Shown in pieces: positions 16,863 through 36,200 of a stretch of 64,000 nt of DNA. Made by a program: the position numbers and the translations under genes. The DNA comes from Candidatus Nanohalococcus occultus. Lineage in GTDB: Archaea > Nanohalarchaeota > Nanosalinia > Nanosalinales > Nanosalinaceae. The stretch is from NCBI RefSeq assembly GCF_029207735.1, contig NZ_CP104395.1, positions 850,692 through 914,691 of the forward strand, written 5' to 3'. The notes beneath the pieces are model-generated. The model was not told the origin of the DNA. It did no database searches and saw nothing but the letters and a program-made list of their open reading frames with translations. How positions within the stretch are numbered: the stretch's first letter is position 1; each line of letters begins with the position of its first letter.

Positions 16863-18140
16863 CTAGCGTGTCTCTCTTAGCTCTTTGAGAATGACTCTCA
16901 TCATCTCTCCAAGTTCCTGATATCCTTCACGGATGTCCCGAACTTCCTCTTCCTGTCTTTCGATTTCGTTGAGGATTGGTTCAATATCTGGCTGTTTTTC
17001 AGCTTCAAGAGCTTCAATTCTATCCTCCAAGGTATCTATAAACTCTGCTTCAATACCAGAGTTACTTTCGACCTGATTAAGTCGTTCCCTGATTAATCCA
17101 AGCTCTTCATCGCTGCCGACGCCGCCAAGTTCGTCTTTAAGATCGTAATGTGCGTCTTCAAGTTCATCAAATCTTTCCTGTAAACCATTAACTCTGTCTT
17201 CGATGCTTTCCACATCTACGTCGAACTCTTGATCTGAGGCCTTTAGATCCTCGAACTCTTCATCTGTTAGAAGTTTAAGCTCCGCTAGATCCTCGAAGTC
17301 GTTGAATATCCATCTGATATCGGACAATGATGCTTCAAGCTCGTCAATCCTGTCCTCGAACTCTGAGACGTCTTTAGCATCGGAATCTTCAAGGCTCTCA
17401 ATCCTAGACTCGAGGTTATCCGCTTTAACCCGTGCTTTGTCAAGTTCATTGGTATCTGCCCCGGATTCTTCAACTTCTTCAATTCTTTCAATCAGGTTTT
17501 CTCTTACATCCGATATTAAATCTGATTTTTCCGCTACGCGGTCTTTAACCTCTTCAAGCTCCGATTCAATGTCTTTTACGATATCAGAATCCGGTAGATC
17601 TTCAATGCTTGCTTTCAGGTTCTTGATCTCTTCTTCCGACACATCGCCGTCTTGAGAATCAAGCTCTTCAATTTTTTCGTTTAGTTCTTCTCTGGCGTTT
17701 TCAAGTCCGTCCAGTCTCGCTTCTAAGTCCTCTACGAACTCTGCTTTAAGCCCTGAGTTAGATTCCAGTACGTTAATTCTCTGTTCTAACTCGTCCAGAC
17801 CATCGCTGGCTTTTTCCTCTTCGAGCTGGTTCTCAAGGGACTCGATACGGCCTTCGAACCGATTTTCCATCTCATCCAGTCTTTCCTGGAACTGTTCTTC
17901 GAGATCCGAGTTGCCCTCTGGCTCGGAGACCTCATCTTTCTCTGTGTTTTCTCCAGTTTCTTCCGTCTGTAGAAGTTCTTCGGAAGAGTCTTTGTCTTCA
18001 TCTTCCTGTTCTGTTTCTTCTGGTACTTTTTCCGACTCTTCTTCAGTTTCTTCCTTCTGTTCGTCTAGAAGGGATTTCTGAGAGTCCTGTTGTTCTGTTT
18101 GGTCTTCTTCATCTCCACCGAAAATTACCTCTTCCGCCAC
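16863..18140 (-). CDS. Long acidic coiled-coil protein (425 aa)
   Basis: Starts at GTG 18140. An extremely Glu-rich first 90 residues is followed by heptad-repeat coiled coil to the C-terminus. There is an internal duplication: LESNSGLKAEFVEDLEARLDGLE (about 128-150) recurs as VESNSGIEAEFIDTLEDRIEALE (about 355-380). The tail MMRVILKELRETR resembles the tail of the next gene. No enzyme motif. It may be a cytoplasmic scaffold of the kind that accompanies archaeal surface filaments, but this is inference from coiled-coil character only. Confidence 0.8.
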   Translation of the reverse strand: MAEEVIFGGDEEDQTEQQDSQKSLLDEQKEETEEESEKVPEETEQEDEDKDSSEELLQTEETGENTEKDEVSEPEGNSDLEEQFQERLDEMENRFEGRIESLENQLEEEKASDGLDELEQRINVLESNSGLKAEFVEDLEARLDGLENAREELNEKIEELDSQDGDVSEEEIKNLKASIEDLPDSDIVKDIESELEEVKDRVAEKSDLISDVRENLIERIEEVEESGADTNELDKARVKADNLESRIESLEDSDAKDVSEFEDRIDELEASLSDIRWIFNDFEDLAELKLLTDEEFEDLKASDQEFDVDVESIEDRVNGLQERFDELEDAHYDLKDELGGVGSDEELGLIRERLNQVESNSGIEAEFIDTLEDRIEALEAEKQPDIEPILNEIERQEEEVRDIREGYQELGEMMRVILKELRETR

Positions 18141-18184: not shown

Positions 18185-19174
18185 CTACCGGAGTCCGTCC
18201 TTCACTAGCTCGGTGAGCTGTACCATCTGATCGAGAAGCTGCTCGTTTTGGCGCTTGTTGTCCTCTATGCGTTTTTCAAGCATCGAGACTTCTTCATCCA
18301 TCGCCTCCCATAACTCCTCGACATTTCCAGAGTCGTCTTCGAGATTCTCGAGCCTTGAACGCATTTCCTCCTCTAAACTATCTGTTTTTTCCCGTAGCTC
18401 AACTATCTCAGTTTTCAGCTGGTCGAACTCCTCTTGCTGTACGCCTTCGTTTGACTCCAGCTTCTGTTGGAAGTCCTCCAGCCGGTCTTCAACCGAGTCA
18501 AGCCTGTTTTCAAGCCCTGAAGTATCGAAATCTAGGTCGAGCCGGTCTTCTAGGCCGTTTTCGATAAGCCAGTTCATCCGGCGCTCAGGGTTCTCTACAA
18601 GGTCTTCTAGCTCCGTGAGACGATTGTCAAGTATTTCAGGCGAGTCAAGTGTTTCAAGTTCGGCTTCAAGCCGATTCATTCTCTGCTCGAACTCTTCGAA
18701 GCCTGCCTCATCTTTCTGTTCGTCTACTTCTAGCTGTGTTACTCTCTGTTCAAGATCGCCGATTTCCGATAGTTTCTCGGTTTCAGCGGACATCAGTTCT
18801 TTTTCTACTTCCGTTATACGTTCCTCGAGTTCTTCCAGAGTTTCATCGTCCGCCCCGGACTCTGATTCGAGTTCTGCGATTTCATCCATCAGCTCTTCTT
18901 TGTCAGGGCCTTGTTCTTCCTTGATACTTTTCGGCTCAGAGTTTACCTTCGGGCCTTGTTCTTTGTCTTCGTCGTCAGCCACGGTCTCTTCTACCTGTCT
19001 GCGCATCGAAGAGTTTTCTAGGTCTGTTACACTTGTCTTGGGCGTTCCTGTTATCTCGTCTTTGATCTGCTGTAAATTATCCTCTATAGTCTCGTAGTTA
19101 GCAGAAGATTCCTCAACGTCTTTATCGCCCGAGACCTTCTCCGTTGCGTGTTTCAGCCTATCGGTTAAACCCAT
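18185..19174 (-). CDS. Acidic coiled-coil protein (329 aa)
   Basis: Begins MGLTDRLKHATEKVSG, a short basic amphipathic segment. An acidic linker (to about 90) then leads into coiled coil built of LEDR/LEER heptads to the end. A break PERRMNWLIENGLEDRLDLD occurs near 195-215. The C-terminus NEQLLDQMVQLTELVKDGLR parallels the end of the downstream coiled-coil gene, so the two are probably paralogs in one operon (44 nt apart). It is divergent from phosphoglycerate mutase. Function not recognised. Confidence 0.8.
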   Translation of the reverse strand: MGLTDRLKHATEKVSGDKDVEESSANYETIEDNLQQIKDEITGTPKTSVTDLENSSMRRQVEETVADDEDKEQGPKVNSEPKSIKEEQGPDKEELMDEIAELESESGADDETLEELEERITEVEKELMSAETEKLSEIGDLEQRVTQLEVDEQKDEAGFEEFEQRMNRLEAELETLDSPEILDNRLTELEDLVENPERRMNWLIENGLEDRLDLDFDTSGLENRLDSVEDRLEDFQQKLESNEGVQQEEFDQLKTEIVELREKTDSLEEEMRSRLENLEDDSGNVEELWEAMDEEVSMLEKRIEDNKRQNEQLLDQMVQLTELVKDGLR

Positions 19175-20704: not shown

Positions 20705-20962
20705 TTAATCGCCGTATTTAGTCTGGCATTTACTGGAAACGCTACCGGAGCCACAGTTTTTCTCATAGAGGTAGCGAGCCCTATTACACCCGTCAGAACT
20801 CTCACTTCTCTGAACCTCCCAGAGATCACACTTAGCCGAAGTGACCTGAGAATCAAGAGTCGAATCCGCGCTCTGAGTCTGATCCTGAGCGATAGAACCT
20901 GCCAGAAGAGCCATTATGCCCAACAATGCGAAGGCAACTATCATTCGAAGCGTTACTTCCAT
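20705..20962 (-). CDS. Small exported protein with prepilin-like N-terminus (85 aa)
   Basis: One N-terminal hydrophobic helix (LRMIVAFALLGIMALLAGS) is followed by a short exterior domain with five cysteines (CDLWE, CNRARYLYEKNC, SSKC). There is no Lys-Gly processing motif, so it could be a minor pilin or simply a membrane-anchored peptide. Last gene of the minus-strand surface locus, 1 nt after its upstream neighbour. Confidence 0.6.
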   Translation of the reverse strand: MEVTLRMIVAFALLGIMALLAGSIAQDQTQSADSTLDSQVTSAKCDLWEVQRSESSDGCNRARYLYEKNCGSGSVSSKCQTKYGD

Positions 20963-20963
20963 T

Positions 20964-21251
20964 TTAATTTCCTGAACAGATGTATCTTCCGTCCTCGTAG
21001 TTGTAGCTCGCTATATCGACGTGGCTGGTTATACTGCCATCATCCGATCTTTCCACACATTGAGAGGGAGCCGGAACCGATTCAGACAGACCACAGGCGC
21101 CTTCAACTGCTTGAACGCATGCGTCACGGTTCAAGTTTTCGCTGCTATCTAGAAGAGTTGTTCGTCCCAGTACCGCGACCGTCAAAGCCGTCATCATAAG
21201 TACGGATGCGATTACTACCAGGGTCAGTGTCTGGGACATTCCTTTGTTCAT
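20964..21251 (-). CDS. Prepilin-like protein (95 aa)
   Basis: N-terminus MNKG followed by a hydrophobic helix MSQTLTLVVIASVLMMTALTVAVLG: a class III signal of the kind cut by archaeal prepilin peptidase after Gly. The exterior part holds five Cys. It lies after alba and before another small exported gene. Confidence 0.6.
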   Translation of the reverse strand: MNKGMSQTLTLVVIASVLMMTALTVAVLGRTTLLDSSENLNRDACVQAVEGACGLSESVPAPSQCVERSDDGSITSHVDIASYNYEDGRYICSGN

Positions 21252-21318
21252 ATCAGCTAATTTTGTAGAAGTCGTATAAAAAACATGAAGTTTTGAGGCC
21301 GAGAAGGCCTCTCTTGGA

Positions 21319-21597
21319 TTATCTTGCTAGGTCGATCTGGATTGATGATACCTTCATGCTGTCTCCTTCATCCGTCTCGATCTCGTCTGTGCCAATCTCT
21401 ATGTCCTCTACGTCTGCTTCCTCGACGTGATCTCTTGTCACCATCTCCGCTACATCGACTGCCCGGGAAATGGCTTTACCTCTTGCTTTAACGTGTACTT
21501 CATCTCTGTCGCCGCTGAACTGAGTTACAACCGCTAGAACGTAACTCATCGGCGGTTTGGATCCAATGTATACTGTGTTGTCGTCTTCTTCTGGCAC
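21319..21597 (-). CDS. alba: Alba-family DNA/RNA-binding protein
   Basis: About 92 aa. I choose GTG 21597 because GGTAGGTGATC precedes it at normal Shine-Dalgarno spacing; an in-frame GTG at 21615 gives 98 aa but puts that site inside the gene. [21 protein letters not shown] and [19 protein letters not shown] are the Alba core, with Lys in the loop that contacts nucleic acid. It is a chromatin or RNA-binding protein, unrelated to the surrounding pilus genes. A TATA-like box (21631-21638) gives it its own promoter. Confidence 0.92.
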
Positions 21598-21630
21598 TGT
21601 TTGATCACCTACCACGATTTTTGTAAGGAA

Positions 21631-21638
21631 AATTTAAA
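21631..21638 (-). promoter_or_regulatory. TATA-like box of alba
   Basis: TTTAAATT on the minus strand, 34-41 nt upstream of the chosen GTG start, giving a short leader with a Shine-Dalgarno. Confidence 0.5.
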
Positions 21639-21649
21639 CCGTTGATCCG

Positions 21650-22705
21650 TCAATCCGAGTTAAAACTCTGCGTATAATCGCTTATTTTGAATTCCAAGGG
21701 TTGAAAGCCGCGTTCGCCGAGTATTTTGTACTTATCGTCCTTTAAAGTCATGCTAGCCTGTGCTTCATCTACTCTGATCTCGGAAACTGACTCGAACTCG
21801 GTTTTATCACATATGACTCTGGTACAGGTACCGGTTTTACATGGAACCGGTTCAGGATCGCAGCTACAGACCCCGGAAGAATCAGTTTCGGATCTGGTCT
21901 CAGTTACTTCTGAAAGACGGTAGTCTTCATCCTGTATGCTCGTGTCTTCGAGGTTTGTTGAGACAGCCTGCTCAGCTTCCCGGCTGTAGAGATCATACGC
22001 ATCAGATCTTGCCTCTGAGTTAGCCTCAGCTGCTAAACCTGCTGTAGTCCCACATGCTGAAGCTGTTCCTGTATACCGTCTTCGGTTGCCTTCCCATTCT
22101 GACTGTAGGTCGTAGAGTATCTTTGCTGCCTCTGCGGCGTAAGTACCGTAACGGTTGTTCCGGGAGTTGAACGCGGCCGTTGTGGAAGACTCCTTAGTAG
22201 CAGTCACAGTTGTCTTTTGTGCGCTACATTCGACCGCAAGATAGTTCTCAGGGCTTAACTCTCCTTTTAACACATCCTGTGTTTCCGTGATCGCTATATC
22301 GATTTCCGGGTTGGTTATGCGACATGGTACCGGTTTTTCATCAGCCACATAGTTTTCATGAAAGTAGCTCTCGGAGGCAGTCTCAAGGTTGCTGACTGCG
22401 GTACTTCGTAAGTTTTCAGCGGTAAAAGTTGAGACCTTTTGACCAGTCCAGGAAATATCGCCGCCCGCCCTTGCTTTCTCAAGTGTTTTCTGCTCGATGG
22501 ATCTTTCAACCCCTACCTGAGCGTAATCATACAGGTAGCTGTCAGCTGCTGAACTCGCCCTTGAGACCATGCGCAGATCATCTACAACGTAAGATGTCTG
22601 CTGGGTTACGGACTCAGAAAGCAGCAGCGACTGACCCGAGAGCGTTAAACTCATTCCGAACATTATAGTAATAGCTAATACATCTGCTGCTACGCCTTTC
22701 CTCAA
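21650..22705 (-). CDS. Large prepilin-like surface protein (351 aa)
   Basis: MRKG then VAADVLAITIMFGMSLTLS: class III-type signal with a Lys-Gly site and long hydrophobic helix. The exterior domain has many Ser/Thr, a Cys-rich knot near 285-310 (VCSCDPEPVPCKTGTCTRVIC) and no recognisable fold. The ATG overlaps the stop of its upstream neighbour by 4 nt. Probably a minor or tip pilin of the locus. Confidence 0.7.
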   Translation of the reverse strand: MRKGVAADVLAITIMFGMSLTLSGQSLLLSESVTQQTSYVVDDLRMVSRASSAADSYLYDYAQVGVERSIEQKTLEKARAGGDISWTGQKVSTFTAENLRSTAVSNLETASESYFHENYVADEKPVPCRITNPEIDIAITETQDVLKGELSPENYLAVECSAQKTTVTATKESSTTAAFNSRNNRYGTYAAEAAKILYDLQSEWEGNRRRYTGTASACGTTAGLAAEANSEARSDAYDLYSREAEQAVSTNLEDTSIQDEDYRLSEVTETRSETDSSGVCSCDPEPVPCKTGTCTRVICDKTEFESVSEIRVDEAQASMTLKDDKYKILGERGFQPLEFKISDYTQSFNSD

Positions 22706-23244
22706 CTTTCATCACCTACAGAATCCTGTACCCACAGCTCGAACTCTGCGGTCTCTCCACCGGCAAGAGGAATCATCCTGGAATACGAGATCTGGCGGTT
22801 TGCCTGACCGTCGCTGACCTCTATAACAGATGCCCTGTTTTCCACTTTCATCCGGTAATACGATGAGTCAAGTGAGGCATCAAGTGTGTAATTAAAATGC
22901 TGTTCGAGATCGCTTTGAACCTCTGATTCCGAGAAAGTATCCTCTCCCAGCCTTATGTTGCCGTTTGTCGACAGGTAAAGTGACAGAAGCTCTTTAGGAG
23001 CTATTTGACCGTACTTGGAGCTAGGTTGTTCGTCGATGTAGATATCTCCGTTTAATGAGGTTTTGATCGCAGAGCCGGCTTTCACTTCATTTAGAGAGTA
23101 ATCGACTCTCGGCCTTATATCTTCCTCCAACCTTGCCTCCCCCAGTGTAATTATTAAGAAGAATGCGAGCGCTGTGAAGATCGCCGCACCGTATACCACA
23201 ATCTCCCCGATCATCTCCTGACCTTTAGAGGATCTGATAGACAC
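22702..23244 (-). CDS. Prepilin-like protein (180 aa)
   Basis: GTG start. MSIRSSKG-QEMIGEIVVYGAAIFTALAFFLI has a Lys-Gly site with Glu shortly after it, close to the classical type IV pilin pattern. The exterior domain is about 145 aa and lacks Cys. Overlaps the upstream gene by 20 nt and the downstream gene by 4 nt. Confidence 0.7.
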   Translation of the reverse strand: MSIRSSKGQEMIGEIVVYGAAIFTALAFFLIITLGEARLEEDIRPRVDYSLNEVKAGSAIKTSLNGDIYIDEQPSSKYGQIAPKELLSLYLSTNGNIRLGEDTFSESEVQSDLEQHFNYTLDASLDSSYYRMKVENRASVIEVSDGQANRQISYSRMIPLAGGETAEFELWVQDSVGDES

Positions 23245-23752
23245 TCACCCGTGCTAAAACGTTTTCTTTTTCGCCTTGTAAAGTTACAGGAGCGCTTACA
23301 GGCTCTGTGTAAACCGTTACCTGTCTCCTGGTCGAGATTCCTTGCTGTTGAGTACATTCAAGGTCATAGGAGGTCTCGGAAAGAGGTTCAATGAAGACCG
23401 CGAAGTTTTCCCCATCAAGGCCGTTGACCTCCGGTATGTAACAGTAAGAACTTTCTTCCATGTAGCCTAGCTGTGAGTCCGTTGCCTCCTGTGTGAAAAG
23501 CTCTACCGGCAGAGTCGCTCTGCGCCCACTGTATTCGTAGTTCAAGCTGCCCTGTTTTGACTCCGGCACCTGATAAGTCAAGAGATTCTGGAGAACAGTT
23601 GCAGCCATGAACTCGTCTTCCCCCAGATCCTCGGTCTGTATGTTTATATCGACCAGTCCTGTGAAAAACAGCGATACAATTATTCCGAACCCAGTCAACA
23701 TCATCAGCGTATAAGGTATTTTCTTCAGGGCGTTTTCCGCGGTAAGACTCAA
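23225..23752 (-). CDS. Exported pilus-locus protein (175 aa)
   Basis: TTG start overlapping the preceding stop. N-terminal KKIPYTLMMLTGFGIIVSLFFTGLVDI is a membrane helix without a Gly cleavage motif. The external domain is beta-rich with three Cys (YCYIPE, LECTQQ). It is likely an anchored component or minor pilin. No family recognised. Confidence 0.6.
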   Translation of the reverse strand: MSLTAENALKKIPYTLMMLTGFGIIVSLFFTGLVDINIQTEDLGEDEFMAATVLQNLLTYQVPESKQGSLNYEYSGRRATLPVELFTQEATDSQLGYMEESSYCYIPEVNGLDGENFAVFIEPLSETSYDLECTQQQGISTRRQVTVYTEPVSAPVTLQGEKENVLARVSVYQIL

Positions 23753-24144
23753 CTAGCACACCCTTCTACATCAAGATACAGTACGTCGTTTTCACTGTAA
23801 ATACAAAGCTGTGAGTCTATAGTACGGAAATCTGTAGGCGCAACGACACCAGAATAAGACTCATATACAAGAGAAAAATCTTCTGAAATAGACTCACCGT
23901 CATACCTCAAACTAACTGTCTGCTCGCTAGGATCATGTGCTATCTCGTAACCCTTCATTTTAAGCTTAGCCTCGGCATCAGCCGAATCTACGGAAAGCGC
24001 GGTAGAGCTAATACGTGTAGACTGTACGTCCAGAGTAGAGGTCTTAAGAAAAGCCGTGCTGTTGAAGGCCAATGTCAGATTTACCGTTAGCAGGACCATA
24101 GCTGTGAGAAGCGGATCGATGTTTTCCAGAAAGCTGGCACTCAC
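23749..24144 (-). CDS. Exported pilus-locus protein (131 aa)
   Basis: I start it at GTG 24144, which overlaps the previous TGA (GTGA) and puts the hydrophobic helix PLLTAMVLLTVNLTLAF near the N-terminus. A longer reading to 24240 lies wholly inside the upstream gene. Short N-terminal VSASFLENID, one helix, then an external domain with two Cys (LCIYSE, VEGCAS). No Lys-Gly site. Confidence 0.6.
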   Translation of the reverse strand: MSASFLENIDPLLTAMVLLTVNLTLAFNSTAFLKTSTLDVQSTRISSTALSVDSADAEAKLKMKGYEIAHDPSEQTVSLRYDGESISEDFSLVYESYSGVVAPTDFRTIDSQLCIYSENDVLYLDVEGCAS

Positions 24145-24581
24145 TGTTTTTCCGCTTCCACAACGATCTTGGGACTTGAAGGGTTTTGAGCCGAGACGTT
24201 GATCGACCATTCCGCCCCATCGATGCTTGTACCCGGCCATTCATACGAACAGTCATCGTTCAGCACATGAGTTCTTGTAGAAGACTCTAGCTCCGCTACA
24301 AGCCGTGATTCGGAGTCCTCTGTATCTATCTTCAGGTTTGAAATCGTACCCAATACGTATTTTTGTTCATCATAGCTTTCTTTGTCTTCTTCATTTACGG
24401 CCTGGCATCTATCGGCGATCTGGTTTGCTATCGACTCTACCTTATCCTTAGGACTGCCTGTTATATCGTCTGTAGCTAGCATCATAGACATGCTAGTAAC
24501 TATTACTATAGCTGTTAAGGCTACTAGAAAGCCGACTGTAACCTCTCCAACAGCTTCTTCTGCTATACCTTTACGTCGCAT
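24141..24581 (-). CDS. Prepilin-like protein (146 aa)
   Basis: MRRKG-IAEEAVGEVTVGFLVALTAIVIVTS: basic stretch, Lys-Gly, Glu residues and a hydrophobic helix, a good class III signal. The external domain has Cys in DRCQAV and DDCSYEW. Overlaps neighbours on both sides. Confidence 0.7.
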   Translation of the reverse strand: MRRKGIAEEAVGEVTVGFLVALTAIVIVTSMSMMLATDDITGSPKDKVESIANQIADRCQAVNEEDKESYDEQKYVLGTISNLKIDTEDSESRLVAELESSTRTHVLNDDCSYEWPGTSIDGAEWSINVSAQNPSSPKIVVEAEKQ

Positions 24582-24795
24582 GAGTTCTCAACCTGTTTTC
24601 CGTGTAATCAGTACACTCTGCGGCGTTTTCCAGACCCTGTTCTTCAAAGATACATTCCGCATCTTCGCTTAAAGAATCTGTTTGTTTACCGACTTGACTA
24701 TCAGCTCTCCGCTCTGTAACTGTTAAAACGCCTATAACTGCTAGTACAATAATTATTCCGAGCGCCAGCGCTATTACGAAGTCTCGGGATATCAT
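24571..24795 (-). CDS. Small anchored pilus-locus protein (74 aa)
   Basis: MISRDFVIALALGIIIVLAVIGVLTV is a single helix at the very N-terminus, followed by an acidic domain with two Cys (AECIFEE, AECTDYT). ATG overlaps the previous TGA (ATGA). No Gly site. Possible minor pilin. Confidence 0.6.
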   Translation of the reverse strand: MISRDFVIALALGIIIVLAVIGVLTVTERRADSQVGKQTDSLSEDAECIFEEQGLENAAECTDYTENRLRTHAT

Positions 24796-24935
24796 CCGAG
24801 TGTGGCGTTGGTTGCGAAGTTACTGAGGTTTTGAGCATGTGACTGTGCGAAAACCGAGGCTAGCACAAGAACTATCATCCCGATTACAAGTAAAACTACG
24901 TAGTTCAGCGGCATGATGAATCCTTTACGGCGCAT
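24792..24935 (-). CDS. Prepilin-like microprotein (47 aa)
   Basis: Starts ATG 24935 with MRRKG-FIMPLNYVVLLVIGMIVLVLA, a class III-type signal, then a 20-residue Asn-rich tail ending NATLG. It stops at TGA overlapping the next ATG. The length suits a bare pilin core like those of archaeal Tad-type pili. Confidence 0.65.
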   Translation of the reverse strand: MRRKGFIMPLNYVVLLVIGMIVLVLASVFAQSHAQNLSNFATNATLG

Positions 24936-24965
24936 AATCTAACTATTGACTCTCGGAGGTTAATA

Positions 24966-25121
24966 TTACTGCGGTGAAGGAAACTCAACAGAGTTCGCGA
25001 AATCACCGAGCAGCTGATCTACCCATCCTGTGGCCGCAGCCAGGATTAAAGCCACTGTTATGACGCCTATGACGATTTTCATCGTAAAACTTATCGATAT
25101 CATTCCTTTCCTGTATTTCAT
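24966..25121 (-). CDS. Prepilin-like microprotein (51 aa)
   Basis: Starts ATG 25121, overlapping the preceding TGA (ATGA). MKYRKG-MISISFTMKIVIGVITVALILAAA has a basic Lys-Gly signal and helix, then WVDQLLGDFANSVEF. Possible major pilin or assembly peptide. Confidence 0.65.
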   Translation of the reverse strand: MKYRKGMISISFTMKIVIGVITVALILAAATGWVDQLLGDFANSVEFPSPQ

Positions 25122-26656
25122 TGTTCCACCCATTTCCTGTTTCCCGGTTCACATACGTATATCTTCTCCTCTCCCTGTTCATGGACCCTGACCCTTCTAG
25201 GGCCGGGTAGTGCTTCATCACATACAGCCCAAACCGATCTCTGCCGGTTATCGGAGGCAAGATCGCCACAGATCAGATCGCCGTACGGCTGGAAGACCTG
25301 ATCGCTATCCTTTTTACTGCCCTTCAAGAAGTCAATCTCGGTACTATCGACAGTTTCATCGCTGAAACCTTCAGCCACAAGTTTGTCTCTGTAGAGATCG
25401 CCTGAGCCTTTCTCGAAGTTATGACTTACCGAAAACGCCGTTGACGATACCTCGACCGAGTTTACAGGCGGAAACGTACCATCGTGCTGTATAACCGTGC
25501 CGTTCCAGTAGTAAGCTCCGCCAGGGTCGTCAAACGAGTTGGGATCGTTGTCCATGAAATGAAGCGCGCACTGCGAGTTGGTAGGTTCATGCCATTCGTA
25601 AAAAGCCGTAGTCCATCCACTGGCAGAGAATGAAAGCGCCATCTGCCGAGTCTTCGTAGGGAACTGTCGATAGTTAACTCTTAAGGCCATGTACGGCGAA
25701 GAGGTCGGACCGTCAGGCTGTACGCCCGTAACAGAGCCGCAATTCGGTTCTTCAACCTCTGTTATAACTATGCGGGCGAATTTCGGTGCGTTACCTGTGC
25801 CATACTCCTCTCCGGCCTCACCGTCGTTTGTTGGAGAGCCTTTGTTTATCTGGATGTATCCTTTATCACCCTTACAGAGTTTTACCGAGTCCTTACCGTC
25901 TAAACCCTTGACGGTTTCACTGCCGCTCACTTCCTGTTCGCCACCACAGTAAGGACTGTTTTCAAGATCGTTAACGCTCCAGTCGCTGGCACGGCCGTCA
26001 ATATCTTGCTCGACATCGAAGTAAAGAGTATAGGACTGTGATGAGAGAACAGTTCCCTCACATAGTTCTGCCCAGCGATCGTAGGATTTATCGGAGAATC
26101 CTTTCAGCTTGGACTCAAGGTACGTCGAATCGTCGTTCGAAGTCAAAGTAATCGTCTCTTTTACCTCGAACCGCTCACGGGAGAAGATTCCTTCCATATC
26201 CTGTCCTGTTCTCTGAGCCACCCCTGTCTGACCCAGCCCCGTGGATCTCGCGCCGTAACAGTCCGGGTACTGACCCAGGTAAGTATCGGCAAGAGCAGGG
26301 TAACCGGATTGAGGCCAGTAACCTTTCTTTTTTACATCAAAATTTCTTTGAGACGGATTGTTCTGGTAGCAGACCATCGGATGCATACCCTGTTTACACA
26401 GCAGTTCTCCGTTTTCATCGGTGTCGTATCTGCATCCGTCGTTTGAACCTCTCTGGTAGACAAGCATTGCGAGATCGGAGACATCCTGCTTATTTGCGAC
26501 ATCGACTGTGTAATCGGACTGCTGTCCTATGGCTTCAGTTCCCTGATCTATAATATCTGCGATAGGGCCGTCGGTGTAAGCAGTCATTACTGTCCCGGCC
26601 GCTCCAAATGCGGCAACGATCGCCAGAATTGTACCTATCGCTATCGAGCCTTTCAC
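25118..26656 (-). CDS. Large prepilin-like surface protein (512 aa)
   Basis: MKG-SIAIGTILAIVAAFGAAGTVM is a class III-like signal with very short leader. About 480 external residues follow, with at least 12 Cys, aromatic-rich loops and Asn/Gly repeats; no domain recognised. Length is far above ordinary pilins, so a tip adhesin is a reasonable inference. Confidence 0.65.
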   Translation of the reverse strand: MKGSIAIGTILAIVAAFGAAGTVMTAYTDGPIADIIDQGTEAIGQQSDYTVDVANKQDVSDLAMLVYQRGSNDGCRYDTDENGELLCKQGMHPMVCYQNNPSQRNFDVKKKGYWPQSGYPALADTYLGQYPDCYGARSTGLGQTGVAQRTGQDMEGIFSRERFEVKETITLTSNDDSTYLESKLKGFSDKSYDRWAELCEGTVLSSQSYTLYFDVEQDIDGRASDWSVNDLENSPYCGGEQEVSGSETVKGLDGKDSVKLCKGDKGYIQINKGSPTNDGEAGEEYGTGNAPKFARIVITEVEEPNCGSVTGVQPDGPTSSPYMALRVNYRQFPTKTRQMALSFSASGWTTAFYEWHEPTNSQCALHFMDNDPNSFDDPGGAYYWNGTVIQHDGTFPPVNSVEVSSTAFSVSHNFEKGSGDLYRDKLVAEGFSDETVDSTEIDFLKGSKKDSDQVFQPYGDLICGDLASDNRQRSVWAVCDEALPGPRRVRVHEQGEEKIYVCEPGNRKWVEQ

Positions 26657-26692
26657 AGTTTCTATTGTCTTCTCTGTATTATTAATTCAACC

Positions 26693-26881
26693 TTATCCGC
26701 AGATGTTCCTGCCAGTCATATCTGCGACCATTGAGGCTGTTGCTCGCCAAGGACCCACACACATAGTATTTCCTCCCTGGGCCTGAAGAAGCGGCACTAT
26801 CACAGTTATCAGAATCAGGGCTGCGAATATAGAAATCACCAGTTTCACAACGACTGTTATGGGAATACTGCCTTTCTCCAT
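26693..26881 (-). CDS. Prepilin-like protein (62 aa)
   Basis: MEKG-SIPITVVVKLVISIFAALILITVIVPLLQ: Lys-Gly site with hydrophobic helix, then a short tail with two Cys (MCVGPW, NICG). Candidate major pilin. Confidence 0.65.
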   Translation of the reverse strand: MEKGSIPITVVVKLVISIFAALILITVIVPLLQAQGGNTMCVGPWRATASMVADMTGRNICG

Positions 26882-26907
26882 ACCCTAGTTTATCACCCCC
26901 GGTATAA

Positions 26908-27063
26908 TTAACTGAGCGTGCCTGGACGTGCGTTCTGAATTATCTCTTCGAAACCTGTAGACAGTATACCTGCTACGACGAGAGTTACAATACCTGCTAT
27001 GACTATAAGCACCAGTATCTCCGTAGGCAGGGTTACAGAGCCTATCCTGTTGCGACCGATGAT
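26908..27063 (-). CDS. Prepilin-like microprotein with apparent ATC start (51 aa)
   Basis: The hydrophobic frame reads I-I-GRNRIG-SVTLPTEILVLIVIAGIVTLVVAGIL... and ends at TAA 26908. It has the helix and Gly site of its neighbours. Upstream in frame the only codons before a stop are CTG GCT GTT TGG AGG TGT TGT ATC ATC, with no ATG, GTG or TTG. GGAGGTG lies 4 nt before the first ATC. Another frame through the same bases gives a hydrophilic, unpilin-like peptide. Either an ATC (or CTG) start or a sequence error. Confidence 0.5.
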   Translation of the reverse strand: MIGRNRIGSVTLPTEILVLIVIAGIVTLVVAGILSTGFEEIIQNARPGTLS

Positions 27064-29201
27064 ACAACACCTCCAAACAGCCAGCTAATGGTTATCATGA
27101 CCAGCGAGTAAATTATGACGCCAGATATAAGCATTTTACCGATTGTAAGCGCCCTGTAAGTAGGTTCCTCGCCTTTAGTTATCTTTGTGCTGAACGTGCC
27201 AAGAATGTAAAGCAGCTGGATCAGATAAACCCCGACAACAAGCTGTAAGGCTTCTGGAGGTATAGCGCCACCGATGTCCTGGGCGAAACCGAAACCGGCA
27301 CTCGGCGCCTGGTTCGACTCAAGATCGGTAAAAGACTGAGATATCTTAAACATTGCTGTCATAATCGTCTGGGACATTCCAACCGCGATCGCCGATACTA
27401 TCGGCGCCAGAATATAGGAGAGCATCACAAGAGTGGTTGTAGTTTCTTCAAGCAAGTCATTAAGCGTCTCCTGAGTTCTGTGAATGTTCTGGAGGTAACG
27501 GGAGATAGTCATCATTGTTACCGCCGCCATCTGTGTTCCTTTCTGCGAAGACTGGGTTATAGCCTTCATAACTGTCTCGATAGTCTGACTTGGATACTCT
27601 CTGATCGCGCCGTGCGTTGAATCGAAAAGAGCGTCTTCAAAGGTCATTCCCATCCTTGTAACGTTTTCAGAGGCTTTCTGGAAAAGCCCTGATATCTCCA
27701 TGTCCTTTGAATCCTCTGCTGCTTTCTGAAGTGCCACCTCAACAGGTGTGCCGCCGGAAACCTTGTTACCTAACTGGAAGAGTACGTCAGGGAACTGGCG
27801 CTCTATCTTCTGAAGTTTCTCGATAGCCTCCTTCCGATTACGGTTCCCGAGGTACATCGTGGCGCCTATACCGAGTCCAAGCCCGGAAGTGATCGAAAGA
27901 CTTCTAAGCAACATCATAAGCGAGTCAGGATTGCTGACAGAACCGTAAAGACCTGGAACAGACGATACCTCCTCTGCGGTAAACGGATACATATGAGGGA
28001 ACTGTAAATACCCAAGTAAACCGTAAACCGACAGCAAACCGAATATAACAACGCCTACAACCCATGAAGGTATCCGGATTTTCTGACCTGCTATTGTAAA
28101 ACCTGTTTTTCCGCGTTCAGGCAGATAATCATCGTCAACAGGCTGTGTAGATGTTGTAGGCGGCCGAGACGTCAGAAGTCTCTGCATGAACCACCACAGC
28201 CCGGTAGGCAGCATAATATTGAACAGCATCACCAAATGAACCGGTGTTATGACACCCCCCATGAAAATCGAGACAAGAGGAAGCATAATAAGACCTAAGA
28301 CCGGTAAAAGCGCACCCAATGCGTTAAGTATCATCACAGGTGTTTTCAGGCCCTGTGCATAGTGTTTCATCTTTTCCTGTGTGCCTTCGAGTATGTTATC
28401 AATTGAGTCCTGTAGCATGTCTTTCCGTCGCTCAGTGTTTGATTCACGCATAGCAGCCTCCAGCATCTGTAAGGACTGAAGATAATCGTCATTGTAGTCT
28501 TTCCAGACCTTAGTGTACTCTTCAAGCGATTTAGAAACCCTGGAATAGTTACCTACCTCCACATTCCAAAGAACCCTTTTCAGATCCGAGGCGATTTCTC
28601 CGTTGAGATTCAAAGCCGCGAAACGGACTGCGCCCTCGATGTTCGGAGAGCTACGCATATAGACAACCATGTAAAGTATAGACAGTATCATCTCTCCGGA
28701 AGACGTTATCATCTTCTCTTTAGCATCATAGACCGGTTTCAGGTAGGTATATGCCGTCGCGGAAATAGGGAATATTATAAGCAAAAACAGCATCTCCATC
28801 GGCAGCAGGTACTGAACAGTCGTCCCATCAGGCGTGCTGACAGTTGTGCCTGTCAGAAAGTTCAGGCCGATCAGAACCATCCACATCATGAAAGTTATGA
28901 AACCTACAAGCGTCGAAGCGCTAAGAACCATTCCTGGAGAGACTTCCCATCCAAGTAAACGAAGTGGAGGGCCGAGACGTTTCATAGACGATTCTCCTGC
29001 TCTTATATTAAACAAAGAGCCGGCTTTCTGGCAAAGACGTTCATAACGCGACAGACCTTGCTCTTGGACCTCCTCTTTCTTGTACTTCTTGTAATCCCTG
29101 GAATAACCTCTCTGAGTGTCGTTATCGTACGGCGGAAGCTCTATATCACGGTTAAGATTATTTACAATTCCTTTGAGCTTGTCTTTTTCATCTTCATTCA
29201 T
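27042..29201 (-). CDS. TadC/FlaJ-like pilus platform protein, two T2SSF domains
   Basis: 719 aa polytopic protein. An acidic cytoplasmic N-terminus (1-85) is followed by two type II secretion F domains, about 95-345 and 395-715, each with paired helices around a cytoplasmic loop (SSGEMILSILYMVVYMRSS..., FPDVLFQLGNKVSGG...). Membrane platform of type IV-like filaments that converts ATPase motion into pilin extrusion. Double-domain TadC is the common archaeal form. It lies 6 nt after the ATPase gene and overlaps the next pilin-like gene. Confidence 0.9.
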   Translation of the reverse strand: MNEDEKDKLKGIVNNLNRDIELPPYDNDTQRGYSRDYKKYKKEEVQEQGLSRYERLCQKAGSLFNIRAGESSMKRLGPPLRLLGWEVSPGMVLSASTLVGFITFMMWMVLIGLNFLTGTTVSTPDGTTVQYLLPMEMLFLLIIFPISATAYTYLKPVYDAKEKMITSSGEMILSILYMVVYMRSSPNIEGAVRFAALNLNGEIASDLKRVLWNVEVGNYSRVSKSLEEYTKVWKDYNDDYLQSLQMLEAAMRESNTERRKDMLQDSIDNILEGTQEKMKHYAQGLKTPVMILNALGALLPVLGLIMLPLVSIFMGGVITPVHLVMLFNIMLPTGLWWFMQRLLTSRPPTTSTQPVDDDYLPERGKTGFTIAGQKIRIPSWVVGVVIFGLLSVYGLLGYLQFPHMYPFTAEEVSSVPGLYGSVSNPDSLMMLLRSLSITSGLGLGIGATMYLGNRNRKEAIEKLQKIERQFPDVLFQLGNKVSGGTPVEVALQKAAEDSKDMEISGLFQKASENVTRMGMTFEDALFDSTHGAIREYPSQTIETVMKAITQSSQKGTQMAAVTMMTISRYLQNIHRTQETLNDLLEETTTTLVMLSYILAPIVSAIAVGMSQTIMTAMFKISQSFTDLESNQAPSAGFGFAQDIGGAIPPEALQLVVGVYLIQLLYILGTFSTKITKGEEPTYRALTIGKMLISGVIIYSLVMITISWLFGGVVSSVATG

Positions 29202-29207
29202 GGAACC

Positions 29208-31469
29208 CTACCCCGTATTCCTCTCAAGCCATTCATTCCAGCGCGCATAGATGCGCTCGGCGTTTTGCTCCCCATATTCTTGACTGACCTTATTAGCCAG
29301 TTTATGATACTTCTGATTGGCTTCAACTACGAAATCAGCCTCCATAATCTCCTGATTGTCGACCTCATGGGATCTCTCAACAAGTCTCTGTTTCATCTTC
29401 TTTCTGAGCTGTATGTTGTCCCATACAGCCTCCCAGTCGTTTTTCCACTCCCGGATATTTTCAGCGATCCTGTTAAGAACCATTGATTCGCCGTTAAGCA
29501 ATGTATCAGTTGGTACAAGCTCGTCTTTGTTCGAATCATACCGCATAAGATCAACGAAGCCGTTTTCCTCTTCAGGATCGTCTGTCCAGTCCTTTCTAAC
29601 TTCTGTTATGCCCGTTATACGTCTGTAGGTCTCCATACCATCCGGTGAACGGATCTTGTTGACGCTGACGATGACGTCAGTTGCTTTGAAAGAGGTTTTT
29701 GGAACCCCTAGGTCGTTTACAACCCGGTCGAATACAGAGTAGGCTGACTCTCCGTGGATAGTTCCTCCAACAAAGTTTGCTACGGCCCCCACACGCATGG
29801 CCTCGTAAAGAGTTTTAGCCTCATCGCTTCTAACCTCTCCAATTACAAGCGCGGAGTCTCCAAGCCGCAGAGAAGTACGGATAGCCTCATCCGCTCCGAG
29901 TTCGTTTTCCACCTGTGTAATTACCGAACGTGATTTCATCCTTTCGACGTTGTAACCCAAGTCCTTCATCTGATTGATCGGCAACTCGAGAGTGTCCTCT
30001 ACGGAGACTATCCTGTGTTTTTTCATTATCTCAAGCATGGAGGCGCCTAATAGAGATGTCTTTCCGGCTCCACGGGTTCCTGAGAAAAGCACAGAACGGT
30101 TTCCGTCCACGATGAAAGATATCAATGCGGCTCCTAGCGGGTTAACCATGTCCTGGTCCATGAAAAGCGGTAATGTCCAGGCCTTGGATCTGTGACGTCG
30201 GAAGGCAAAGGCCAGGCCCTCTGGCGAGAGGCTTTCCTGTATTATAGCTACTCTTGCCCGACCTCCCGGTACCTGTGCTTCCGTATCGAGTACAGGGTTG
30301 GCTTCATCCAGTGGACGGCCTGATTTGATTCTGAAACGTGTTGCCCAGGATTCTGCCTCGTCTTTGGTCGGTATAAGGTTGGTCTCACACTCTTCGTACT
30401 CTTCGTGAGTTATGAATATCTCCGAGTCTCCGATAGGCGAGTTTACAAAAACGTCTTGGATCTTCGGATCGCTTAGTAAAAGCTCTAGAACTCCCAGACC
30501 AGAAGTGTACCTGTTCAGTATTGCTGTCAGGTCCTCGAGTTCTTCCTGATTGAGAGAGATGTTCATCTGGTTGGATATATCCCGCAGCATGTCCCTTCCA
30601 ATGTTTTCGAAAACCTGGCGCATACGTTCCGGGCGGGCGAACTCTCCGCTTTCCGGCTGGTGAGAGGCCATAAACCGCCGGGCGGCATCCAGTATCCGGT
30701 ACTTTTCCTCGCTTAACTGGAACTCCGGAGCATTCACATGGTAGACCGGCTGGACCTTGTCCGGTACCTCGTAGATCGAGACCTCGATGTTGTTTCTAAC
30801 CGTATACCGGTCGATCTCCTTGCCTCTCTCCGGAGGCAGGCTCATGTACTTTGTAAGCATGAAGTTCGGACGTACAAGCGGGTGGAAAAACTCTCTGTAG
30901 ACCTCACGATCGCCGACGTGATGACCTGTCACGTAGTCGTTGTCTCTTGCCTGCTGTATTAGCTGCGTTTCCTCCAGCTCATCGAGTATTGGATCGATTA
31001 CATCCTGGAAAAAGTATTTGATACACCTATCCTTCCGTTCGTATGTTTCTCCACGCTGCTGGTTGAGATGCCGTCGTTTACGCAGCAGTTCGACGTAGGC
31101 ACCGACCGGATCCTTTCTTAACGTATCTACGATTATGCTCTGGACCTCAGGCAGCTGTTCGCTGTAAAAGGAATCGCAGCGAGATCCAGGGTTCTGGGAA
31201 AGGTATCCCTGTGCGGATATATCCTGTATTACATGCGCTATCTCTCTAAGCAGATCGATCTGTTCTTCGCCGTATTCGTAATCCCGTGATTCGGAGAGTA
31301 CTACCGAGTTCGCATCCGGGACTTCCTGTAGTATGTTTATTACACGGCTCATTACCTGTTCGTAGTCCTCGATGGATGCTCCGTAGATAGAGCCGAGGAC
31401 GTTGACACTGACTGTAGCCGTGTCTTCATCGTACTCGTAGTCGAAAACGTCGAGATTGTGAACAGTCAT
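29208..31469 (-). CDS. TadA/PilB-like secretion ATPase
   Basis: 753 aa from ATG 31469; the open frame runs further but that part is antisense to the coiled-coil gene. The N-terminal 250 residues are variable. The ATPase core holds Walker A GTRGAGKTS (about 465), an Asp box, Walker B ALVIGEVRSDEA (about 540) and the His box GGTIHGESAYSVFDR. Hexameric motor for pilus assembly or secretion in the FlaI/TadA/GspE family. First gene of the minus-strand pilus operon. Confidence 0.92.
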   Translation of the reverse strand: MTVHNLDVFDYEYDEDTATVSVNVLGSIYGASIEDYEQVMSRVINILQEVPDANSVVLSESRDYEYGEEQIDLLREIAHVIQDISAQGYLSQNPGSRCDSFYSEQLPEVQSIIVDTLRKDPVGAYVELLRKRRHLNQQRGETYERKDRCIKYFFQDVIDPILDELEETQLIQQARDNDYVTGHHVGDREVYREFFHPLVRPNFMLTKYMSLPPERGKEIDRYTVRNNIEVSIYEVPDKVQPVYHVNAPEFQLSEEKYRILDAARRFMASHQPESGEFARPERMRQVFENIGRDMLRDISNQMNISLNQEELEDLTAILNRYTSGLGVLELLLSDPKIQDVFVNSPIGDSEIFITHEEYEECETNLIPTKDEAESWATRFRIKSGRPLDEANPVLDTEAQVPGGRARVAIIQESLSPEGLAFAFRRHRSKAWTLPLFMDQDMVNPLGAALISFIVDGNRSVLFSGTRGAGKTSLLGASMLEIMKKHRIVSVEDTLELPINQMKDLGYNVERMKSRSVITQVENELGADEAIRTSLRLGDSALVIGEVRSDEAKTLYEAMRVGAVANFVGGTIHGESAYSVFDRVVNDLGVPKTSFKATDVIVSVNKIRSPDGMETYRRITGITEVRKDWTDDPEEENGFVDLMRYDSNKDELVPTDTLLNGESMVLNRIAENIREWKNDWEAVWDNIQLRKKMKQRLVERSHEVDNQEIMEADFVVEANQKYHKLANKVSQEYGEQNAERIYARWNEWLERNTG

Positions 31470-31509: not shown

Positions 31510-31959
31510 GTGGCCCGCCAGCAAGACACTTTAAACCAGGTTGTAAACCGAGTAAACGACTTCAACCGTCGTATCCGAGACCTGGAAGAGAAGATCCGTA
31601 ACATGAACGCAAGGGTAAACACCTTGGATGACAGTCTTTTAGACAAGACCCAGTCTCTAAGCAACAACATGCAGGACTTAGAGGATGAGATCGAGGAGGT
31701 TCGGGACCGTATCGCGAACATGGAAGTCGACATCAAAGAGATAAACAGGGAGAAAAGAAAGTTTGTCTCCGAACAGCAGCTGGATGAGATGGAGAACTTC
31801 ATGAAGCTGATGAATCCTTTGAACTCGAACTTCGTGACCCAGAACCAGTTAGAGGATGAACTGGACGGCCGGGAAACGGTTTCGAAAAAGGAAGTTGAGA
31901 AAATGATAGACAGAAAGATAAAAAGCAAGCAGAGCGAATCTAAAACTGGTTTGGAATGA
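31510..31959 (+). CDS. Coiled-coil protein (149 aa), FlaC/D/E-like position
   Basis: GTG start. Residues 5-95 form continuous heptads (LNQVVNRVNDFNRRIRDLEEKIRNM...); a break follows (LMNPLNSNFVTQNQLEDEL) and a basic C-terminus. No signal peptide: cytoplasmic. It is divergent from the pilus ATPase and coupled to the next gene by an ATGA overlap. Archaellum operons carry cytoplasmic coiled-coil FlaC/D/E beside FlaI/FlaJ, so a similar motor-associated role is inferred. Confidence 0.7.
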   Translation: MARQQDTLNQVVNRVNDFNRRIRDLEEKIRNMNARVNTLDDSLLDKTQSLSNNMQDLEDEIEEVRDRIANMEVDIKEINREKRKFVSEQQLDEMENFMKLMNPLNSNFVTQNQLEDELDGRETVSKKEVEKMIDRKIKSKQSESKTGLE

Positions 31960-32813
31960 AGTTTGAACTATTCGGCCGATTACGGGACAATGATGGCGGA
32001 GACAGTGCTTCGAGCGACAGCGAGTACGGCTCGAGTTTTGGAACCGCCAACGACCAGATGAGTATGGGCGATAGCCTAGACAGAACTGTAGAAAGCATGT
32101 TTTCACAGGGCTACAGCGAAGACGAGATAAAACAGGAACTGGCCGGACAGTACAACGAATCGGATATAGATCAGGCAATCACTAACGCGGTTGCCTCATC
32201 GGCGCAGGGTAATTCCCGTTCCAACGGACCGGAACCGATGACACCGTACCAGAGCGATCAAAGCGGTGGCGCGGTAAGCCCTATGGACGAAGGCTTCAAT
32301 AGGAACCAAGAGCAAAACGATAGTATGGATAACGGAAACTTCGACCAGCAGCCCGATCAAGACCCGGAGCCTATACCTCAGCAAGGCGGGCAGATGGATC
32401 AGCCTTCACGTAGCGGGAACGTCGATCCAAGGGTAGAAGAGCTGGTTGAGACAGTTATAGCCGAGAACATCGATGATATTTTCTCAGAGTTCGAAAACGT
32501 TTACGGCGAAATTGATAGTATCAAAGAACAGATGGAGGATATGGAACAGCGTCTTCACGACCTCGAGGTTCGTGACGATGAGGACCAACAGCAGTTCGTC
32601 CAGAAAGTCGAAGAGATGGAGAGCCATGTCGATAACTACCAGTCACGTATCGGCGGACTCGAGAAAGCATTCCAGCAGGTACTTCCATCACTTGTGGACA
32701 ACGTCCAGGATCTCACCGGTCTTGTACAAGAGATCAAAGACGAGAGAGGTATCGAGACAGAAAAAGACATCGATACCGAGAAGATCGAAAACATGAATAT
32801 GGAAGACTGGTAA
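31956..32813 (+). CDS. FlaC/D/E-like protein with Gln/Asn-rich linker (285 aa)
   Basis: A small N-terminal helical module (SMFSQGYSEDEIKQELAGQY, about 48-70) is joined by a low-complexity Gln/Asn/Pro/Gly linker (about 85-155) to a C-terminal coiled coil (158-255). The end RIGGLEKAFQQVLPSLVDN resembles the conserved FlaC/FlaD/E stretch. Cytoplasmic. ATG overlaps the previous stop. Likely works with the secretion ATPase. Confidence 0.7.
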   Translation: MKFELFGRLRDNDGGDSASSDSEYGSSFGTANDQMSMGDSLDRTVESMFSQGYSEDEIKQELAGQYNESDIDQAITNAVASSAQGNSRSNGPEPMTPYQSDQSGGAVSPMDEGFNRNQEQNDSMDNGNFDQQPDQDPEPIPQQGGQMDQPSRSGNVDPRVEELVETVIAENIDDIFSEFENVYGEIDSIKEQMEDMEQRLHDLEVRDDEDQQQFVQKVEEMESHVDNYQSRIGGLEKAFQQVLPSLVDNVQDLTGLVQEIKDERGIETEKDIDTEKIENMNMEDW

Positions 32814-32882: not shown

Positions 32883-33398
32883 TTACTCGTCGTCTCCGCC
32901 GCCACCGCCTGCGGTCACTGCTACGAGAATAATTATGAATATCATTGTCAAGACCGGCATTACCGCATCCTCCCAGACGCTGCCTGATGTCTGTGGGATC
33001 AGACCAGTTATATCGTACTGGTAGAGGAATACAAGCACTAAGGCGATTAAGCTGAACCCGATGGCAATACCTCCGATCGGATTGTCCTCTCTATCAATCT
33101 CTGAGAAATCGATCCCGCCGATCGCAGCCAGGACGATTATCCCGATCAAGCCTACAGCCACGAAAGCCAAGGCCGCCATAAAATTGGTGAAAAGACCTTC
33201 TGGGACGAACATCACCATACCTGCCGAGGTAAGGAATCCTAGGGAAAGTGCGATGGCGCCATTAACCATTTCATCCTCAAAGTACTCGTACTTGCTGAGC
33301 GCACCGTAAGTCACAGACATGACAATCAGCCATGGGAAGATCACCTGGAACACTCCCATGTCCATCATAGTTCTGACTAGTTCATCAAATACTCCCAT
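32883..33398 (-). CDS. Polytopic membrane protein (171 aa)
   Basis: Five or so membrane helices with a C-terminal Gly/Asp tail (GGGGGDDE). N-terminus VFDELVRTMMDMGVFQVIFPWLIVMSV parallels that of the next gene upstream (GFNELIRLFMEQDVFTGVLPFVLTYV), so they are paralogs. I recognise no family. Part of a run of small membrane genes beside the pilus ATPase locus. Confidence 0.75.
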   Translation of the reverse strand: MGVFDELVRTMMDMGVFQVIFPWLIVMSVTYGALSKYEYFEDEMVNGAIALSLGFLTSAGMVMFVPEGLFTNFMAALAFVAVGLIGIIVLAAIGGIDFSEIDREDNPIGGIAIGFSLIALVLVFLYQYDITGLIPQTSGSVWEDAVMPVLTMIFIIILVAVTAGGGGGDDE

Positions 33399-33411
33399 TT
33401 ATTTTCTCACC

Positions 33412-34026
33412 TCAGTCATCGTCCCAGTCCTCAGTCCATGCCGATGGATCAAGCATCAGTCTTCTTAGAGGCGGGCCTCCGCCACCGTCATCGCCGCCCT
33501 CGCTTAACGTCCATAGGAGGACTCCTCCGATGACAACCGCCCAGATCAAACCGGATTCAACTAATCCGTTGATGATAGGAGCTATAGCTCCGACGTTAAG
33601 CTCTGTTAATATTGGTGGCCCGAAACCTCCTGCAGAGGTGAAAGCCGCACCTGCCATAGCAACAGCAGCGAGTATCAGTAGCGGGCCTGGGAAGTAGCTA
33701 TTGTCGTCTCCGAGATCCAGTCCCAGGAACGCAAGTATAGTCATTAAACCCAGCAGACCGACCATTCCAACCGCGAACTTCCCGAAATACTGGATGAAAA
33801 ACTGCTGGTAGAAAGGCCGGGCGATAAGGAAGCGCGCTACATAAAACGCGCCTACAATAGATACAAGGGCTGCGAACTGCTCTCCTCTTCCATCATCTGT
33901 GTCAAATATAGGTACTCTCTTGACACCAAGGAACAAGATGACATAAGTCAGTACAAACGGAAGTACCCCTGTAAACACATCCTGCTCCATGAAGAGTCTG
34001 ATCAGTTCGTTAAAGCCCGTTGCCAT
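33412..34026 (-). CDS. Polytopic membrane protein (204 aa), paralog of its neighbour
   Basis: About five helices, a loop RVPIFDTDDGRGEQ between the first two, and a C-terminal tail GGDDGGGGPPLRR... with acidic end. It shares the N-terminal half and general topology with the 171-aa protein 13 nt downstream. No known domain. Possible two-subunit membrane channel or pilus base component. Confidence 0.75.
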   Translation of the reverse strand: MATGFNELIRLFMEQDVFTGVLPFVLTYVILFLGVKRVPIFDTDDGRGEQFAALVSIVGAFYVARFLIARPFYQQFFIQYFGKFAVGMVGLLGLMTILAFLGLDLGDDNSYFPGPLLILAAVAMAGAAFTSAGGFGPPILTELNVGAIAPIINGLVESGLIWAVVIGGVLLWTLSEGGDDGGGGPPLRRLMLDPSAWTEDWDDD

Positions 34027-34031
34027 CTGAA

Positions 34032-34274
34032 TTACTCACTCATGTTCCGGTTCATCAACCAAAGCTCACGTGCGATAATCATCAACGCCAATGGTGTGAG
34101 CCACGGGCTGACAACCTGCTTTCCGAACTCTATCATGCTGACGTCTCCTGCCGCGAAGAAAAACGCCCAGATCGTAACAACTACAAATCCGAACGATAGA
34201 GCCACGATTGTAAACTCATCAACTATATTTTCAATGTTGTAAATGAAGTCAGAGAAAGATCTTTTTTCACTCAT
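34032..34274 (-). CDS. Small two-helix membrane protein (80 aa)
   Basis: SFSDFIYNIENIVDEF precedes helix 1 (TIVALSFGFVVVTIWAFFFA); helix 2 is WLTPLALMIIARELWL. N- and C-termini hydrophilic. It is 5 nt upstream of the 204-aa membrane gene, hence same operon. Function unknown. Confidence 0.7.
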   Translation of the reverse strand: MSEKRSFSDFIYNIENIVDEFTIVALSFGFVVVTIWAFFFAAGDVSMIEFGKQVVSPWLTPLALMIIARELWLMNRNMSE

Positions 34275-34285
34275 TTTACTTCCAC

Positions 34286-34432
34286 CTACATGAACCCTCC
34301 CATTTGATTCTTTCTTTTATTCCGGTTTTGGGCCCAACTGATAAGGTATCCTGCCGCGACACCTAGAATTAGCACGTCCGGGTTAGCCATAGCCGCCGAC
34401 ATTAACTGTTGCATTAATCCTGCTTCTGCCAT
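34286..34432 (-). CDS. Membrane microprotein (48 aa)
   Basis: ATG 34432 to TAG 34286: MAEAGLMQQLMSAAMANPD, then one helix VLILGVAAGYLISWA and a basic tail NRNKRKNQMGGFM. A single-span peptide in the membrane-protein run, 11 nt before the 80-aa gene. No family recognised. Confidence 0.65.
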   Translation of the reverse strand: MAEAGLMQQLMSAAMANPDVLILGVAAGYLISWAQNRNKRKNQMGGFM

Positions 34433-34482
34433 TTTGAATCTACCTAAAGGTTAATTGCCTGTTTCTGGTTTAAATAAATGAA

Positions 34483-35406: not shown

Positions 35407-35415
35407 TGAAATCAC

Positions 35416-36177: not shown

Positions 36178-36192
36178 AATTTTGTAGCTTGT

Positions 36193-36200
36193 TTTTATAA
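36193..36200 (-). promoter_or_regulatory. TATA box before the zinc-ribbon membrane gene
   Basis: TATAAAAA on the minus strand, about 25 nt from GTG 36171; implies a leaderless transcript. Confidence 0.4.

Follow-up and report, generated by a model that had tools for sequence, protein, structure and literature searches.

An ordered array of strongly diverged prepilin-like genes behind a type IV filament machine in a DPANN archaeon

Introduction

What kind of machine is encoded by an archaeal locus in which a secretion ATPase and a membrane platform are followed by a long chain of short genes, and what might such a machine do for the cell? The question is raised by Candidatus Nanohalococcus occultus, a tiny and probably host-dependent DPANN archaeon, and concerns a window of 64,000 bases (bases 850692-914691 of the complete 948,351-base genome). 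For the attachment organelle of DPANN, the literature states that the component proteins are unknown (PMC11420986, PMC11104419). Two DPANN loci that combine CpaF, TadC and coiled-coil proteins were described by Hamm et al. 2024, who report synthesis of proteins from such pilus loci in Nha. antarcticus and whose main text and legend name filament proteins (FlaF, PilA) for locus 1 only (PMC11291902); unrecognisable short proteins near FlaI/TadC in DPANN were proposed by Makarova et al. 2019 to be diverse pilins (PMC6393860).

Results

A secretion ATPase and a platform head a chain of short genes

A sequence-only reading of the window had placed a type IV filament operon at 20705-31469 on the minus strand, and both these coordinates and its outline, one secretion ATPase and one two-domain platform gene followed by short genes of 47 to 512 aa that mostly overlap at start and stop codons, proved correct (Table 1). 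The ATPase exceeds the T2SSE cut-off, retains an intact Walker A motif (GTRGAGKTS) and has 2OAP as its nearest relative in the PDB (E = 4.6e-46, profile positions 200-638), its N-terminus remaining unmatched; the platform matches T2SSF in two stretches (best E = 3e-7, 30.9 bits against a cut-off of 25.2). Together with class III prepilins (8 of 12 ORFs) and a prepilin peptidase encoded in the genome, the Walker-motif ATPase and T2SSF/TadC platform are features of the type IV filament (TFF) superfamily; against the BasE model of the Bindosome (Bas), on the other hand, the ATPase scores only 65.5 bits (cut-off 1000).

In two genomes, ATPase and platform at first looked fused (open frames of 1471 and 1651 aa), but the fusion was discounted because a stop codon separates the two. 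The pilus ATPase carries intein-like insertions in three related genomes: after ITVED in L070 and L072, and at a second site, within the Walker A motif, in L071.

Table 1. Features of the filament locus, in window coordinates. Leaders are written up to the slash; leave-one-out values are correct top matches per case.
Feature	Position	Strand	Remarks
Secretion ATPase, TadA/FlaI/CpaF-type, 753 aa	29208..31469	-	N-terminal extension of ~200 aa; PF00437 2e-15
Membrane platform, TadC/FlaJ type, 719 aa	27042..29201	-	two T2SSF domains, PF00482
P1, probable mini-prepilin, ~51 aa (RNRIG/SVTLPTEILVLIVIAG)	26908..27063	-	P1 HMM of relatives
P2, prepilin, 62 aa (MEKG/)	26693..26881	-	two conserved Cys; leave-one-out 10/10
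P3, large prepilin, 512 aa (MKG/)	25118..26656	-	leave-one-out 10/11
P4, prepilin, 55 aa (RKG/)	24966..25133	-	leave-one-out 9/9
P5, prepilin, 47 aa (MRRKG/)	24792..24935	-	leave-one-out 6/6
P6, 74 aa, N-terminal TM helix, no class III leader	24571..24795	-	leave-one-out 8/9
P7, prepilin, 146 aa (MRRKG/)	24141..24581	-	leave-one-out 10/10
P8, 163 aa, leader absent or degraded	23749..24240	-	leave-one-out 10/11
P9, 175 aa, single TM, no leader	23225..23752	-	leave-one-out 9/10
P10, prepilin, 180 aa (SKG/)	22702..23244	-	leave-one-out 9/10
P11, prepilin, 351 aa (MRKG/)	21650..22705	-	leave-one-out 11/11
Alba-family nucleic-acid-binding protein, 98 aa	21319..21615	-	PF01918 1.2e-18
TATA box TTTTTATAC, upstream of P12	21274..21282	-	TTTATAC conserved before P12
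P12, prepilin, 95 aa (MNKG/MSQTL), conserved Cys residues	20964..21251	-	proposed major pilin
P13, leaderless TM protein, 85 aa, directly behind P12	20705..20962	-	leave-one-out 9/9
CCP1, coiled-coil protein, divergent from ATPase	31510..31959	+	position kept across cluster 2 DPANN
CCP2, coiled-coil protein, small N-terminal helical domain	31956..32813	+	coiled-coil pair with CCP1

Eight of the twelve short ORFs carry a class III leader

With a leader defined as KG or RG within the first 22 residues and followed by a helix, P2, P3, P4, P5, P7, P10, P11 and P12 combine this motif with a hydrophobic helix. The 6.4-kb array holds eight such ORFs versus four in the remaining 57.6 kb of the window, all four being internal starts of longer ORFs; likewise, in the ~10 kb downstream of the ATPase at 40 homologous loci, a mean of 2.6 leader ORFs lie on the ATPase strand versus 0.1 on the opposite one. 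This double enrichment indicates that the array is more than a product of chance.

The earlier picture of about a dozen prepilin-like genes, nearly all with a Lys-Gly or Arg-Gly leader, thus needs correcting in part: twelve short ORFs do have an N-terminal hydrophobic helix, but P6, P8, P9 and P13 lack the leader, so that several members are not processable as prepilins, and the 98-aa gene in the chain encodes a soluble Alba protein rather than a pilin. P6, P9 and P13 are also leaderless in relatives, with few exceptions for P6 and none for P9; P8 has a KG leader in most relatives, and it is in the window genome that this is missing or degraded. The same reading overlooked P1, which lies in a different frame from the platform gene, overlaps its end and has no ATG, GTG or TTG start. 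An HMM built from relatives matches P1 weakly (13.3 bits, E = 2.9e-6 in a search of this one sequence only), and the counterparts of relatives at this place are KG prepilins of 37-60 aa; P1 is a probable ninth prepilin with a non-standard start, whose gene may begin at ATC or be damaged.

No prepilin peptidase is encoded in the window and one lies elsewhere in the genome (C1:239280-240092; PF01478 match at C1:239301, 30.4 bits against a cut-off of 26.5), suggesting that the array depends on a peptidase acting in trans. The gene adjoins the ATPase and platform of L061, one of two further T4P loci in the genome, the other (L062) being located beside a thermosome gene. Peptidase homologs occur in the seven relatives tested, two of which have fragments or weak matches only; those relatives with no PF01478 match that were rechecked with the peptidase of the window genome did give a match. 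Absence of a peptidase from the genome, or of the ATPase/platform pair from related genomes that have homologs, had been named at the outset as grounds for abandoning the filament interpretation: the peptidase is present and the pair is kept.

The array consists of thirteen families in fixed order

Eleven arrays of the same family, all from Nanohaloarchaea and including that of the window, were compared by assigning positions by eye and then testing them with leave-one-out HMMs, each built for one position from the other genomes and run on every ORF of the omitted locus. The assigned ORF was the top match in 129 of 137 cases with Alba and in 119 of 127 without it, the failure of P12 in L051 probably reflecting a wrongly set start or frame; each of the thirteen positions thus stands for a family of its own rather than for an interchangeable helix. 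Their size plan runs, from P1 to P11, ~45, 60, 350-835, 60, 50-65, 75, 140, 140, 120-200, 130-220 and 320-510 aa, followed by Alba, P12 (92-120 aa) and P13 (80-120 aa). Identity to the window among the genomes of the same family is 73-80% for the ATPase, 55-60% for the platform, 63-77% for Alba, 59-64% for CCP1 and 52-58% for CCP2, against medians of 14-33% for array members. The machine is thus conserved, whereas the parts of the array have diverged almost beyond recognition with their order retained.

Cysteines are kept in several families (P2, P3, P11 and P12), and P3, which spans 348-835 aa in the aligned relatives, conserves DMEG and LCxGxxGYIQ motifs. Searches of the array families against Pfam, NCBIfam and the PDB gave no convincing match. 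The AlphaFold model of P3 was unusable (pLDDT 47.5) and no fold could be identified from it; that of P11, an AF2 model of low confidence (pLDDT 67), consists of a long N-terminal helix and alpha/beta domains, with neither PDB nor viral folds matching at E <= 0.001. P3 is duplicated in two Nanohaloarchaea (L043 and L051), and in L070 the series P8-P9-P10-P11 occurs twice in tandem, with one P11 copy split, which suggests that P8-P11 form a working unit.

The Alba gene occupies the same place between P11 and P12 throughout the family. Two more coiled-coil proteins (16863-18140 and 18185-19174) are encoded downstream of the array, separated from it by a phosphoglycerate mutase-like gene of opposite orientation; in other family members the array is followed by similar proteins, with an EDVIFG N-terminus.

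P12 has its own TATA box

A TTTATAC element is found 27-31 nt ahead of the P12 start in all eleven family genomes but is no more than sporadic in the rest of the array, so that P12-P13 are set apart by a promoter of their own; the full box, TTTTTATAC, occurs three times in the 64-kb window, against 0.46 expected. The spacing between TATA box and start implies a leaderless transcript, as judged from sequence. P12 has the most conserved N-terminal helix, and its relatives occur in order and also in Aenigmatarchaeota. Promoter and conserved helix together make P12 the best candidate for, and likely identity of, the major pilin. On genomic grounds, this promoter, the large P3 and P11 and the duplicated P8-P11 cassette also render plausible the earlier suggestion of several structural and tip subunits.

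A coiled-coil pair faces away from the ATPase

Most ATPase loci have a pair of coiled-coil genes whose transcription runs away from the ATPase. By inspection, CCP1 and CCP2 have neither a signal peptide nor a TM helix. The published likeness of such coiled coils to a viral attachment protein could be reproduced (sigma-1-like, 6GAO, E = 4.7e-6) but is unspecific, since keratin, GCN4 and further coiled coils match that region as well.

The region beside the pair (32883-36926) encodes small multi-pass membrane proteins, a zinc-ribbon membrane protein and a further coiled-coil protein (34483-35415); in several other DPANN, comparable membrane proteins are encoded upstream of the ATPase. The genes at 36985-38730 and 38771-41647 code for candidate surface proteins, large and secreted, whose domains are Ig-like, PKD and carboxypeptidase-regulatory-like.

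The machine recurs among DPANN, with or without the array

The ATPase search returned at least 559 pattern matches, and among the 80 that were kept the ATPase belongs mainly to Nanohaloarchaea, Aenigmatarchaeota, Woesearchaeota and Nanoarchaeota. An aenigmatarchaeote locus (L117) follows the same plan with ORFs of 51, 62, 316, 69 (leaderless), 91, 197, 157 (leaderless), 299 and 436 aa, and L094 has a similar one. Woesearchaeota keep ATPase and platform, with zero or one class III ORF in the next 10 kb; this implies that the machine can exist without an array beside it, the pilins there being encoded elsewhere or of a different kind. Loci of this type, with no adjoining pilin array, include L118, L124 and L139.

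Discussion

The type of locus was already known. Like locus 2 of Hamm et al. 2024 as described in the main text, it combines a CpaF-type ATPase and a TadC platform with coiled coils in cluster 2 DPANN, and its distribution over Nanohaloarchaeota, Aenigmarchaeota, Woesearchaeota and Nanoarchaeota agrees; matched by description rather than by locus tags, it is very probably the same locus, and the thermosome-linked L062 fits locus 1 (PMC11291902). What differs is that the ATPase/TadC operon here bears a thirteen-family array and the P12 promoter. Compared with the "dark matter" pilus islands of Makarova et al. 2019, about which that text makes a general statement (PMC6393860), families, order, leaderless members and promoter are now defined; as far as these two texts go, the ordered array, its leaderless members and the P12 promoter are not described in them, and these are what is new relative to them. 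Euryarchaeal PilB/PilC (PilA-based) pili share the ATPase, the TadC-like platform, class III pilins and a peptidase in trans (PMC4858521), but no subunit tested here convincingly matches a Pfam or NCBIfam family.

The evidence supports the presence, in this DPANN archaeon, of a type IV filament-type machine that comes with many prepilins, and the reading that we favour, and consider probable, is that of a dedicated DPANN machine making a host-contact surface filament with P12 as its major subunit. ATPase and platform would push prepilins, cleaved in trans by the peptidase encoded elsewhere, into a surface filament built mainly of P12 expressed from its own TATA promoter; P1-P5, P7, P8, P10 and P11 would be minor pilins that start or cap it, the large P3 (and P11) bearing an exposed contact domain. 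Leaderless P6, P9 and P13 would stay membrane-bound and serve as anchors or as assembly factors, and the soluble coiled-coil pair would work from the cytoplasmic side. Contact with a host cell is the most likely task of this filament, judging by lifestyle and divergence: a conserved machine carrying almost unrecognisable surface parts fits adaptation to different hosts.

Other machines could be assembled from similar components. Bacterial T2SS/T4P minor-pilin sets (GspH-K, FimT/PilVWX, ComG) comprise different minor pilins with the largest last, a resemblance of layout only, to which the array adds no sequence or fold match. The P7-P11 size series, with P11 the largest of its block, nevertheless recalls the minor pseudopilins of T2SS, and large Ig-rich secreted proteins are encoded next door (36985-41647), as might suit a pseudopilus-like device in which minor pilins form a short piston that expels effectors or enzymes and no long filament is made. 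This is improbable in view of the conserved promoter of P12, as for an abundant subunit, and of the lack of any detected linkage to a substrate; moreover, a secretin is not expected in a single-membrane archaeon. A leaderless member within the minor-pilin block resembles ComGF, which may be counted in favour of a competence-like pilus whose DNA uptake would feed a cell presumed to rely on imported nucleotides. Pilus-mediated DNA import has indeed been proposed for related Nanohaloarchaeota (PMC9563170), but the extreme divergence of the subunits is unexpected for DNA binding, and a ComEC-type channel (PF03772) was found in none of 19 related genomes, a weak argument given that archaeal controls lack it too; on balance, we regard DNA uptake as quite unlikely.

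An archaellum-derived rotary filament, with a FlaI-like ATPase and a FlaC-like cytoplasmic part in CCP2, is highly improbable. FlaI is the top NCBIfam match of the ATPase, but at 134.9 bits it lies far below the cut-off of 550; FlaC_arch (PF05377) matches 11 of 38 CCP2 proteins (best E = 1.9e-6), but the CCP2 of the window falls under the cut-off and many coiled-coil proteins of these genomes match likewise. Because generic coiled coils score alike genome-wide, an identification of CCP2 as FlaC was dropped. FlaD/E (PF04659) was found in none of the 19 relatives, and no FlaH-like gene was seen beside the ATPase at the locus.

To the problem of how DPANN cells grip their hosts the locus offers a short, ordered list of candidates, with P12 as the likely major pilin and P3 as the likely exposed subunit. 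It also suggests a cytoplasmic location for the coiled-coil proteins that were published as resembling viral attachment proteins. A bolder and quite unlikely proposal is that the DPANN attachment organelle itself has its thin tube or filament encoded by the array, each of the thirteen families occupying a set position and the exposed ones being tuned to the host species. Cryo-tomography shows attachment structures in DPANN, for whose proteins the array supplies candidates, and the locus illustrates that position can find such genes where sequence similarity fails.
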